Source: Eubacteriales bacterium
GTDB taxonomy: Bacteria; Bacillota; Clostridia; Lachnospirales; Lachnospiraceae
Length of the DNA stretch: 64,000 nucleotides
Direction of reading: 5' to 3'
Assembly: GCA_030524715.1 (NCBI GenBank)
Contig: JAUNGB010000010.1
Location: 23,768 to 87,767 of the forward strand
The notes beneath the pieces were generated by a model that saw only the letters and a program-made list of their open reading frames with translations, searched no databases and was not told where the DNA came from. This document shows, in pieces, positions 10,524 through 49,438 of the stretch; position 1 is the stretch's first letter; the number at the start of each line of letters is the position of its first letter. Both the position numbers and the translations under genes were made by a program.

Positions 10524-11306
10524 TCAGTCATGGTCGCCGCAGTGATGTTCGCCACAACCATGCTCGCCGCAAGTGTGGCCCTCACCGTGATGCTCTTGGT
10601 GGTGATTGCAGCGGACATCGGGATTGAAGTCCAGATTTCCTGCAGCAAAAGCCGCAGCCGCCTCGTCTGCATTGCCAGACACGCCGCCGTACAGCTTAAT
10701 ATTAGCTGCCGCTAAAGCTGCCTGTGCGCCGCCTCCAATACCTCCGCAAATCAGCACATCTGCGTTCAACGCAGTCAGCACACCGGCTAATGCGCCGTGA
10801 CCGCTGCCGTTGGTATCTACAACCTCCGTGGAAATGATCCTGCCGTCCTCTACATCATAGATTTTGAACTGTTCGGTGTGACCGAAATGCTGGAAGATTT
10901 CTCCGTTTTCATAGGTAACTGCAATTCTCATAATATGATCTCCTTTTTCAATTTTGTATTGTTCATAGTAGGCCTGCTTGTAGCATCCGTCATATCCGCA
11001 ATTTGTACTTTGCCCGTTGCAGAGCCAAAAATCGCCGCCTTCAATACGAAGCGGACAGCCGTCAACGATACAGTCTGCAACTTTCTTCCTTGCGCTTTCG
11101 TAAATGCGCTGTACCGTTGTTCTGGCGATCTGCATGAATGCCGCACACTTTTCTTGTCCGTAGCCTTCTTTGTCAATCAGACGAAGGGTTTCATATTCGT
11201 CCACGGTCAGGATGATCGGCTCTTTGTCTGTGGAAGAATCCATTGGGGTAAATAATATGGTTTGAGGATAATGGCAGACTTTCCTGCATTTTATTGGTCT
11301 TGACAT
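10524..11306 (-). CDS. DUF134 (UPF0251) - NifX/NifB dinitrogenase cofactor-type fusion with His/Cys-rich tail
   Basis: A 260-residue two-domain protein. Residues 1-105 or so match the DUF134 DNA-binding family (MSRPIKCRKVC start, LTVDEYETLRLIDKEGYGQE, then a helix-turn-helix region with ARTTVQRIYESARKK and a cysteine cluster). Residues 125-235 are a dinitrogenase iron-molybdenum cofactor-binding (NifX/NafY-type) domain (MRIAVTYENGEIFQHFGHTE, ICGGIGGGAQAAL). The last 25 residues or so are a His/Cys tail (HHQEHHGEGHTCGEHGCGEH), suggesting metal binding. No nitrogenase is present, so a metal or Fe-S sensing or trafficking role is more likely. The start has a clear AAGGAGG site. It is divergent from a Crp/Fnr gene with which it shares a symmetrical promoter. 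Confidence 0.85.
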   Translation of the reverse strand: MSRPIKCRKVCHYPQTILFTPMDSSTDKEPIILTVDEYETLRLIDKEGYGQEKCAAFMQIARTTVQRIYESARKKVADCIVDGCPLRIEGGDFWLCNGQSTNCGYDGCYKQAYYEQYKIEKGDHIMRIAVTYENGEIFQHFGHTEQFKIYDVEDGRIISTEVVDTNGSGHGALAGVLTALNADVLICGGIGGGAQAALAAANIKLYGGVSGNADEAAAAFAAGNLDFNPDVRCNHHQEHHGEGHTCGEHGCGEHHCGDHD

Positions 11307-11336: not shown

Positions 11337-11365
11337 ATTATACTTTGTTTTCGGGCATATGTCAA
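11337..11365 (-). promoter_or_regulatory. Promoter of the DUF134-NifX gene
   Basis: Minus strand TTGACA (11365-11360), exactly 17 bases, TATAAT (11342-11337). Both hexamers are perfect consensus, and the -35 lies within the left arm of the palindrome at 11349-11390. Confidence 0.85.
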
Positions 11366-11390
11366 TAACATAATTGACATATGCCCGAAA
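11349..11390. promoter_or_regulatory. 42-bp palindromic operator shared by two divergent promoters
   Basis: Perfect 18-bp arms TTTCGGGCATATGTCAAT (11349-11366) and its complement (11373-11390) around a 6-base centre. Each arm carries the TTGACA -35 box of one of the two divergent genes, so anything bound here would shut or tune both. Candidate binders are the DUF134 helix-turn-helix domain or the Crp/Fnr protein encoded on either side. Confidence 0.8.
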
Positions 11391-11402
11391 CAGCAGTATA
11401 AT
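11374..11402 (+). promoter_or_regulatory. Promoter of the Crp/Fnr gene
   Basis: TTGACA (11374-11379), 17 bases, TATAAT (11397-11402): perfect consensus, and a mirror image of the divergent promoter. Confidence 0.85.
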
Positions 11403-11425: not shown

Positions 11426-12082
11426 ATGGAATTTGAATCTTATTTTCCCATATGGGATAAGCTAAATAAACAACAGCAGGAACGAATCAAGAACAGTCTG
11501 GCTTTCCGTCAGGTCAAAAAAGGCACAATTATACATAACGGAAATATGGACTGCACTGGCCTTCTTCTTATCAAGTCGGGACAGCTCCGTGCTTATATTC
11601 TTTCCGATGAAGGACGGGAGATCACCATCTACCGTTTGTTCGATATGGATGTGTGCTTGTTTTCCGCGTCCTGCATCATGCGCTCCATTCAGTTCGAGAT
11701 AACGATTGAAGCAGAAAAGAACACCGAACTGTGGGTAATTCCCTCCGAGATTTACAAGAGCATCATGGAAGCATCCGCGCCCGTAGCAAACTACACCAAT
11801 GAACTGATGGCCAGCCGGTTTTCCGATGTGATGTGGCTCATTGAGCAGGTCATGTGGAAGAGCCTCGATAAACGGGTAGCTGCCTTTTTGCTGGAGGAAT
11901 CCGCCATTGAGGAAACCAATGAATTGAAAATTACCCATGAAATCATAGCAAACCACCTTGGTTCTCACCGTGAAGTCATCACAAGGATGCTGCGTTATTT
12001 CCAAAACGAAGGCATGGTAAAGCTGTCCCGTGGCACTGTGCTGATTACGGATGAAGAAAAGCTCCGCGAACTGAGTAAATAA
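11426..12082 (+). CDS. Crp/Fnr-family transcriptional regulator
   Basis: A 218-residue regulator with an N-terminal cyclic-nucleotide-type beta-barrel (KKGTIIHNGNMDCTGLLLIK, AYILSDEGREITIYRLFDMD) and a C-terminal winged helix (ITHEIIANHLGSHREVITRM, then MVKLSRGTVLI). The barrel contains cysteines (DCTG, DVCLFSASCIM), but there is no classical FNR N-terminal cluster, so the effector is unknown; redox or sulfur signals are plausible given the neighbours. AGGAGGAC precedes the ATG. It converges with the CoA-disulfide reductase gene, only 15 bases away. Confidence 0.9.
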   Translation: MEFESYFPIWDKLNKQQQERIKNSLAFRQVKKGTIIHNGNMDCTGLLLIKSGQLRAYILSDEGREITIYRLFDMDVCLFSASCIMRSIQFEITIEAEKNTELWVIPSEIYKSIMEASAPVANYTNELMASRFSDVMWLIEQVMWKSLDKRVAAFLLEESAIEETNELKITHEIIANHLGSHREVITRMLRYFQNEGMVKLSRGTVLITDEEKLRELSK

Positions 12083-12097
12083 TTATTTTTCGTGTTC

Positions 12098-13789
12098 TTA
12101 TTTATCCATACCGCAGGCAAAGGACGCTTCTGCCAGCGCACGATCATTGGCAACGGCATCGTAAAAACGATATCCACCGGCGAAATTATAAGCAATCAAT
12201 CCATTTCCCTCTAAAATACGGCTGGCAATGTAGCTGCGCAGCCCGCTTTGGCAGATCACATAGACGGGCTTTGATGCATCCAGTTCACCCAGGCGTTCTC
12301 TCAACTCATCTACCGGAATATTGAGAAAACCGTCGATATGACCGCGCCGGTATTCTCCTGCGGTTCTGGTGTCAAGAAGCGTTGCGCTGCCATCTATCGG
12401 AAGATTATCCAAGTCGGAAAGATGCCATTGTTTCAGCATTCCATTTGCAATATTGTCGATCATAAATCCAGCCATATTGACCGGATCTTTTGCTGAGGAA
12501 TAGGGCGGCGCATAGGCAAGATCCAAATCTTTCAGTTCAGTTGCCTTCATTTTCGCACGAATAGCGGTTGCCAGCACATCAATCCGTTTGTCCACGCCCT
12601 CATAGCCTACAATTTGTGCACCCAGTAAGCGGTAGGTTTCCTTTTCGAAGACGATCTTCATTGTCATGACCTTGCCGCCGGGATAATATCCGGCATGGCT
12701 CATGGGGGAAAGAATAACCGTATCGACATTTAAGCCTATACGTTTTGCATGGGTTTCATTTATACCGGTAGACGCCGCAGTCAAATCAAATACCTTGATG
12801 ACAGAACTGCCCTGACTGCCTTGATAACGGCTGTCGCCGCCGCAGATATTGTCGGCAATGATGCGTCCCTGCTTATTCGCCGGTCCAGCAAGGGAGATGA
12901 GGGCATCTTCTCCCGTGACAAAATGCTTCACCTGTACTGCGTCCCCGGCGGCGTAAATATCCGGTACAGAGGTTTCCATACGGTCATTTACCACGATACT
13001 GCCCCTGACGCCAAGTTCCAATCCGGCTTCTTTGGCAAGTTTGGTGTCCGGCGTAACACCGATGGCAAGCACTGCCATATCCCCGTGAAGTTGGCTGCCA
13101 TCTGACAGAAGCACATCCACACCATTATTCTTTTCGGAAAATCCCTCCACTTTATGTCCAAATGCCAGACGGACGCCGCGCTTTCTGACCTCTGCGTGAA
13201 TGAAAGCTGCCATGTCCGCATCAAAGGGCATCATAAGCTGCTTTTGGCTTTGCACGATGGTCACATCCATGCCAAGTTCCCGAAGATTTTCCGCAAGCTC
13301 CAGGCCAATGAACCCGCCTCCGGCGATCACAGCGGATTTTGGGTGGTTCCGATTGATATAATCCTTGATTTTGAAGGTATCCTCAATGGTACGCAAGGTA
13401 AACAGCTTGTCCATCTCCATGCCGGGCAGCTTCGGCTGTGACGGCTTCGCACCGGGGGAAAGGATCAGCTTGTCGTAGCTTTCTTCAAATTCCTCCCCGG
13501 TTTGCAGATTTTTTACGGAAACGGTTTTTCTTTCCGGGTGGATTGCCGTTACTTCATGCCGTACTTTCATATCCACACGAAAACGGGAGTAGAAGCTCTC
13601 CGGTGTCTGCAGAGTCAGTTCTTCAGGATTGACGATGGTATCCCCGATATAATATGGCAGGCCGCAGTTGGCATAGGAAACATATCCGCTGCGTTCAAAG
13701 ACGATAATCTGCGCTTGTTCATTTAATCTGCGAATGCGGGCAGCAGCCGTTGCACCACCGGCTACGCCGCCAACAATAATCACTTTCAT
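12098..13789 (-). CDS. FAD-dependent CoA-disulfide reductase / NADH oxidase with C-terminal rhodanese domain
   Basis: A 563-residue flavoprotein of the CoADR-rhodanese type, which reduces CoA disulfide or persulfides with NAD(P)H. The N-terminal FAD loop is VGGVAGGATAAARIRRL, followed by the redox cysteine in SYANCGLPYYIG (near residue 43), an NAD loop AVIAGGGFIGLELAENL, the second FAD motif (DIYAAGDAVQV), and a rhodanese domain from about residue 465 with the active-site loop CQSGLRS. The start codon directly follows the thioredoxin stop (TAA then ATG), so the two are translationally coupled. Persulfide or disulfide stress is the likely context. Confidence 0.92.
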   Translation of the reverse strand: MKVIIVGGVAGGATAAARIRRLNEQAQIIVFERSGYVSYANCGLPYYIGDTIVNPEELTLQTPESFYSRFRVDMKVRHEVTAIHPERKTVSVKNLQTGEEFEESYDKLILSPGAKPSQPKLPGMEMDKLFTLRTIEDTFKIKDYINRNHPKSAVIAGGGFIGLELAENLRELGMDVTIVQSQKQLMMPFDADMAAFIHAEVRKRGVRLAFGHKVEGFSEKNNGVDVLLSDGSQLHGDMAVLAIGVTPDTKLAKEAGLELGVRGSIVVNDRMETSVPDIYAAGDAVQVKHFVTGEDALISLAGPANKQGRIIADNICGGDSRYQGSQGSSVIKVFDLTAASTGINETHAKRIGLNVDTVILSPMSHAGYYPGGKVMTMKIVFEKETYRLLGAQIVGYEGVDKRIDVLATAIRAKMKATELKDLDLAYAPPYSSAKDPVNMAGFMIDNIANGMLKQWHLSDLDNLPIDGSATLLDTRTAGEYRRGHIDGFLNIPVDELRERLGELDASKPVYVICQSGLRSYIASRILEGNGLIAYNFAGGYRFYDAVANDRALAEASFACGMDK

Positions 13790-14110
13790 TTATACTACCG
13801 CCTTTCCCAGCATTTTGAGAATGGCTTCCTTTGGTCTTGCACCCATTGCCCGATTGACGGCCTTGCCATTCTTCATAACAACGAGAGTGGGAATACTCAT
13901 CACGCCAAATTGACTTGCAAGCTCCGGCTGCTCTTCCACATTAACTTTACCGACCTTGACGTCGGAGCGTTCTTCTGCAATCTCTTCTACAATGGGAACG
14001 ACCATACGGCACGGACCGCACCAGGGCGCCCAGAAGTCCAACAGGACGGGCTTGTCCGAGTTCATCACTTCGTTATGGAAATTGGATTTATTGATATTAA
14101 TAGCAGACAT
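13790..14110 (-). CDS. trxA: Thioredoxin
   Basis: A 106-residue thioredoxin with the active site WAPWCGPCRM and the cis-proline region FGVMSIPTLVVMKNG. It reduces protein disulfides and, coupled to the following CoA-disulfide reductase-rhodanese, may serve a dedicated thiol or persulfide pathway. The ATG follows AAGGAGGAC. It is the first gene of a two-gene operon with a TATAAT at 14152-14147 and a Crp/Fnr-like palindrome upstream. Confidence 0.95.
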   Translation of the reverse strand: MSAININKSNFHNEVMNSDKPVLLDFWAPWCGPCRMVVPIVEEIAEERSDVKVGKVNVEEQPELASQFGVMSIPTLVVMKNGKAVNRAMGARPKEAILKMLGKAVV

Positions 14111-14146: not shown

Positions 14147-14187
14147 ATTATAGCCGATATTTTTTGCCTTTTCTGTGATGATATCAC
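14147..14187 (-). promoter_or_regulatory. trxA promoter with Crp/Fnr-like site near -41
   Basis: TATAAT is at 14152-14147 with no good -35. A GTGAT/ATCAC inverted repeat with a 3-base centre spans 14175-14187, centred about 41 bases upstream of the predicted start. That is the class II activator position. Confidence 0.55.
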
Positions 14188-49321: not shown

Positions 49322-49376
49322 GCTCCAGCCCGGGAGTAAAGGGGACATTCGCATTCCGCTACACCGATATCAAAAT

Positions 49377-49425
49377 AAAAAAGAAAGGAGCTTTGCACAT
49401 TACGCGCAAAGCTCCTTTCTTTTTT
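49377..49425. terminator. Bidirectional terminator between MATE and alpha-galactosidase genes
   Basis: Perfect 20-bp arms (49377-49396 and 49406-49425) around AAGGAGCTTTGC, with A and T tracts at both ends, serve the two convergent genes. Confidence 0.9.
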
Positions 49426-49438
49426 ATTCAGAGGCAAC

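Follow-up and report, generated by a model that had tools for sequence, protein, structure and literature searches.

In a stretch of 64,000 nucleotides from contig JAUNGB010000010.1 of a Lachnospiraceae bacterium (the window), a perfect inverted repeat of 42 bp (11,349–11,390) lies between two divergently transcribed genes, one for a DUF134-NifX fusion protein and the other for a Crp/Fnr regulator (crp). The palindrome is quite probably a double operator of the adjacent DUF134-NifX protein, which would bind it as dimers, repress both its own gene and crp, and be gated by a metal or a metal cluster. The comparison of sequences established the anatomy of this element, its association with DUF134 genes, the fusion of operator, −35 box and −10 element, the kinship of DUF134 with region 4 of sigma-70, and the presence of a separate element in front of the thioredoxin gene (trx).

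The arms of the repeat (11,349–11,366 and 11,373–11,390) are perfect complements around a 6-nt centre, AACATA (18 + 6 + 18), and a longer repeat with 81% complementarity surrounds the 42-bp palindrome. Perfect arms of at least 18 nt with a spacer of 0–20 nt are expected about 2e-5 times per window in DNA of the same composition, and the arm pair with any 6-bp centre was found in one copy in the 5.28-Mb assembly of this organism. The first-pass annotation had claimed two perfect promoters with their −35 boxes in opposite arms of the repeat, and this was confirmed. The DUF134-NifX promoter on the minus strand (11,337–11,365; −35 at 11,365–11,360 and −10 at 11,342–11,337) and the crp promoter on the plus strand (11,374–11,402; −35 at 11,374–11,379 and −10 at 11,397–11,402) both read TTGACA-17-TATAAT and agree with the consensus at 12/12 positions. 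Domain matches also supported the genes it had named, a DUF134-NifX fusion with a His/Cys tail (10,524–11,306, minus strand) and a Crp/Fnr regulator with cNMP_binding and HTH_Crp_2 domains (11,426–12,082, plus strand). An invertible promoter was rejected because the palindrome has a centre of only 6 bp and neither outward promoter is disrupted. An RNA element was also rejected, as no Rfam match at gathering score was found in the window and the repeat is upstream of both inferred starts. The sole other repeat found in the window with perfect arms of at least 18 nt and a spacer of 0–20 nt, at 49,374–49,428, is a hairpin with 23-bp perfect arms, an A-run in the left and a T-run in the right arm, and looks like a bidirectional terminator.

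For the operator consensus, the family and a phylum-wide search supplied 166 distinct DUF134 genes, each preceded by at least 100 nt of sequence. The most enriched upstream 10-mer, obtained with no prior motif, was CATATGTCAA, which occurred before 51/166 DUF134 genes against 0.1 in shuffled sequences. Among the other long open reading frames (ORFs) of the same loci, TTGACATATG was upstream of 38/1182, divergent neighbours that share their upstream DNA with DUF134 being part of this set. The phylum-wide genes were fetched after the motif had been discovered in the family and served as the held-out set. Since the pattern TTGACATA[AT]G was broadened after the phylum loci had been seen, the held-out count is stated for the strict TTGACATATG, which was upstream of 10/88 phylum-wide genes (0.06 in shuffles) and of 41/78 genes in the remainder; with A or T allowed at position 9, the counts were 15/88 and 42/78, respectively. 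The aligned sites gave a 20-bp near-palindrome with the consensus TTATTGACATATGTCAATAA, in which the TTGACA −35 box is included. A −10 element was located 16–18 nt past TTGACA in 48/59 forward sites, where about 7.5 were expected, and thus the operator and the −35 box are one sequence. No report of a DNA target for DUF134 was found in the literature searched, which left out most subscription journals; passages on DUF134/UPF0251 in PMC7565180 and PMC5886521 report none, and the 14-mer TTGACATATGTCAA was in no paper among the matches listed for the operator strings, the titles of which were on unrelated subjects. In the phylum, many short DUF134 genes of the SRPTF type (L188–L217, L248–L307) are without the motif, and some of them have TTGACATATGTTCA and TATGAACA elements, hinting at further operator classes.

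With this consensus, the palindrome of the window is predicted to comprise a left operator on the minus strand (11,349–11,368, TTATTGACATATGCCCGAAA) that holds the −35 box of the DUF134-NifX promoter and a right operator on the plus strand (11,371–11,390, TAATTGACATATGCCCGAAA) that holds the −35 box of the crp promoter. The inner half of both fits the consensus and the outer half, CCCGAAA, differs from its TCAATAA. The two operators are inverted, with their CATATG centres 22 bp, or about two helical turns, apart. Among 22 loci examined, 18 had an operator pair, and the spacing was 22 or 23 bp every time, within the 20–25 bp allowed. A search of relatives for the palindrome, as had been suggested in the first-pass annotation, returned the double form GGCATATGTCAA-N3-12-TTGACATATGCC in 6/200 family genomes including its own, always directly upstream of a PF02001 (DUF134) gene, whereas a search of 391 class genomes returned it from its own genome alone. 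The perfect palindrome had 8 sites in the 200 family genomes, of which 5 were at DUF134 promoters and 1 before a Crp-like ORF; the remaining 2, at the start codons of ilvC-like and topoisomerase-like genes (named by eye), were counted as chance.

The 42-bp repeat could also be one operator unit, occupied by a tetramer or a looped dimer, or a DNA structure such as a cruciform, and not two operators. The pair spacing of 22 or 23 bp and the strong folding of a single strand of the repeat (z −9.7) agree with this, and so does the behaviour of the outer arms. These arms flank the conserved CATATG and vary by species (CCCGAAA, CCAAAAAA, CCCTAAAT, CCCATAAA, CCGGAAAT and CCTTTTAT), yet many loci have two similar arms: the mean likeness was 6.9/12 within loci and 5.6 across different loci (permutation p 0.003 for 14 distinct loci), with strongly unlike arms in L012, L034 and L041. 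However, strong folding is expected of any perfect inverted repeat, and the covariation of arms would fit equally two sites that track a single protein or a repair by template switching through which palindromes become perfect. Furthermore, single operators of the same consensus stand alone before many DUF134 genes, and we consider a single unit or a structural role unlikely. Covariation between the recognition helix of DUF134 and its operator was striking at first, but a tree built free of the helix left only one supported independent pair.

The proposed repressor of both promoters matched PF02001 over residues 2–93 (E 6.9e-20, 71.9 bits against a curated cut-off of 27) and thus belongs to the DUF134/UPF0251 family, from which it differs by the fusion to NifX and the His/Cys tail. 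The NifX/Nitro_FeMo-Co domain (PF02579) scored 75.3 bits against a curated cut-off of 26.3 and was also recovered as a fold match. Unlike the NifX/orange protein (ORP)/MTH1175 family, this domain is fused behind a DNA-binding domain; in the part of PMC6345978 that deals with the Desulfovibrio ORP complex, the relatives of NifX are under a sigma-54 promoter, which is a different control. Together with the His/Cys tail, it probably senses a metal or a cluster. Sequence comparison relates the helix-turn-helix (HTH) of DUF134 to region 4 of sigma-70. PF04545, the profile of this region, was matched by 37/43 DUF134 relatives at E ≤ 1 (best 5.6e-8), the DUF134 family profile matched sigma region 4 of its own genome with a probability of 96.5, and the fold comparison between both showed modest similarity. 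A sequence search of solved structures gave many unrelated chains at E of about 0.01–0.3, which were taken as chance. The likeness to region 4 extends to TTGACA in the operator, whereas the palindromic target and the separate NifX domain set the window protein apart. No sigma region 2 was found in its Pfam scan at E ≤ 1, and by this evidence DUF134-NifX is not a sigma factor.

The same kinship, with a −35 box inside the proposed site, allows that DUF134-NifX works as an activator or a sigma-like recruiter instead of a repressor. Both promoters, however, are already 12/12 with 17-bp spacers and should thus need no help from an activator. MerR-type promoters have a long spacer, which is not the case here, and a protein that occupies the −35 box should leave no room for sigma. 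With no sigma region 2 found in the Pfam scan either, such a role is quite doubtful.

We asked which of the two genes the element follows. Crp relatives were matched in 78/200 family genomes, and the DNA of the 30 best places together with the best 80 of 159 named contigs provided 110 Crp loci; filtering for identity and start left 108, and the upstream DNA was long enough in 106. TTGACATATG was present within 300 nt upstream of crp in 13/13 loci with a divergent DUF134 gene versus 5/93 without. When 4 duplicates and the row L072, an artefact without real upstream DNA, were dropped, it was 13/13 versus 5/88 distinct loci. The absence of the palindrome from orthologous loci had been named in advance as evidence against the switch; the core was kept wherever DUF134 was divergent from crp and was absent from most loci without it. 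Four of the five exceptions (L003, L004, L065 and L073) have a common arrangement in which other genes adjoin crp. In L159 and L165, for which the whole stretch was available, extra genes sit between crp and DUF134 and the operators are kept at both ends. A gene block, one gene of which has a Fer4_5 domain, either adjoined crp or separated it from DUF134 in L159, L165, L167, L073 and L065, with DUF134-type operators at its ends wherever both ends were seen. On the other side, no Crp relative was found within the 1.9–5.5 kb examined for 45/57 site-bearing DUF134 genes, although for 2 of these 45 (L145 and L146) the longer stretches L159 and L165 place crp about 2.2 kb away. In these loci the operator goes with DUF134 genes and not with Crp/Fnr.

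The first-pass annotation had left the choice of binder between the DUF134 domain and the Crp/Fnr protein, and a number of observations do weigh against DUF134. The window protein alone was without a PF04545 match, giving only Sigma70_ECF at E 0.23, and the strict held-out motif count was only 10/88. The centre of the palindrome is about 39–41 bp upstream of both inferred starts, which is a usual position for Crp/Fnr proteins. A perfect operator in G026 precedes a contig-truncated ORF with a Crp/Fnr-like N-terminus, and the 5 Crp loci without divergent DUF134 retain the core. As crp adjoins the palindrome, these latter points would suit a Crp/Fnr protein that binds there and regulates itself and DUF134-NifX. 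Against this, the recognition helix of the Crp/Fnr protein is near invariant, with R182, E183, V184 and R187 the same in 103 relatives, and its target should therefore hardly change. The motif nevertheless appears and disappears together with DUF134, and the core is missing from 83/88 distinct Crp loci without a divergent DUF134 gene. The many site-bearing DUF134 genes without a nearby crp, and a different conserved element before trx, also speak against it. Thus, of the two candidates, the DUF134 protein is retained as the likely binder, and binding by Crp/Fnr is highly improbable.

The specificity of the operator within genomes was surveyed next to these association data. The exact core TTGACATATGYC occurs in its own genome only at the two window sites. 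A wider regulon in this genome was rejected, because TTGACATATGYC with up to one mismatch gave 38 matches versus 73 for the reversed control, as expected by chance. In 34 genomes chosen for carrying DUF134, TWWTTGACATATGYC had 42 matches distributed over 26 genomes. Thirty-six of them preceded a DUF134 domain by no more than 200 nt and one was 407 nt off, before a DUF5320-DUF134 gene pair. Three marked the distal end of an inserted segment, two of these 59 nt from crp and one with no crp following, and the last two were a single site read on both strands, before a contig-truncated ORF with a Crp/Fnr-like N-terminus (phmmer E 1.2e-6). From this distribution, the operator appears to act for DUF134 and in several genomes also for a gene of the Crp/Fnr type. 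At L354:2560-2750, a perfect 20-bp DUF134 operator was noticed before a contig-truncated ORF that resembles the N-terminus of a distant Crp/Fnr protein. Conserved operators can serve regulators encoded elsewhere, and binding by DUF134 is itself predicted from sequence, but an unlinked third regulator with DUF134 merely in its regulon would usually have further targets, whereas 37/42 matches belong to DUF134 genes or their operon, 4 lie beside Crp or Crp-like genes and 1 at the end of an inserted segment, which makes this explanation the least probable of all.

The Crp/Fnr protein, the proposed target of the repressor, likely has a site of its own. A thioredoxin gene (13,790–14,110, minus strand) is the first gene of its proposed target operon and a CoA-disulfide reductase-rhodanese gene (coadr; 12,098–13,789, minus strand), convergent with crp, is the second. 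The sequence GTGATGATATCAC at 14,175–14,187, about −41 from the inferred start of this trx-coadr operon, is a probable Crp/Fnr activator site. GTGAT-N3-ATCAC or near forms were found before trx in 27/43 loci, mostly 71–79 nt from the start codon, and this element is likely the site of the Crp/Fnr protein. The genome has 6 sites of the form GTGATNNNATCAC, including the one at 14,175–14,187, and an element of the GTGAT-N3-ATCAC type was present at varied positions in 13/107 crp upstream regions, with the L072 row discounted. The domains of the protein are like those of other Crp/Fnr regulators, 3dv8 being a close solved relative. It differs in having three invariant cysteines and in being seen here as the target of a switch and not as its reader. 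FNR, a 4Fe-4S oxygen sensor, has four cluster cysteines. The Crp/Fnr protein of the window does not fit this type, as it has Cys only at C43, C77 and C83, all invariant in 103 relatives, and scored 40.3 bits against the 228 of the NCBIfam Fnr model. With C43/C77/C83 and the CoA-disulfide reductase-rhodanese gene beside it, a thiol or persulfide sensor is possible.

In the proposed mechanism, a DUF134 dimer would read the 20-bp near-palindrome with its built-in TTGACA, and one DUF134-NifX dimer per operator would cover each −35 box and exclude sigma. Both genes would then be shut, DUF134-NifX by autorepression and crp along with it. A metal ion, or a metal or Fe-S cluster, gained or lost at the NifX domain or the His/Cys tail would release the dimers, and the Crp/Fnr protein, once produced, would act on its own site before the thioredoxin and CoA-disulfide reductase genes. 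The compact switch over both promoters envisaged in the first-pass annotation is supported. Its single bound repressor is better read as one dimer on each operator, and the metal or redox gating it suggested is plausible. TetR/tetA is a divergent self-repressed switch. Here too, the operators overlap two divergent promoters and adjoin the same regulator gene in relatives, as in divergent autoregulated operators, and one gene encodes the proposed binder. The difference is that the second gene is another regulator, the binder is a relative of sigma region 4 and the −35 box is inside the palindromic operator.

DUF134 was present in 192/299 genomes sampled across the phylum. More broadly, and with somewhat less than even confidence, we propose that the proteins of the DUF134 family, as kin of sigma region 4, work as repressors and still read the −35 hexamer, in the form of dimers on a palindrome of two −35-like halves. 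They would compete with sigma for TTGACA through homologous domains, with a NifX-type metal-cluster domain deciding the outcome, and the window protein would shut mirror promoters and so control a Cys-bearing Crp/Fnr regulator. The findings provide DUF134 with a testable candidate operator, a promoter logic and a target gene. They suggest that a sigma-region-4-like domain has turned into a repressor reading the same −35 sequence, and would link gene control in gut anaerobes with a domain of the NifX metal-cluster type.
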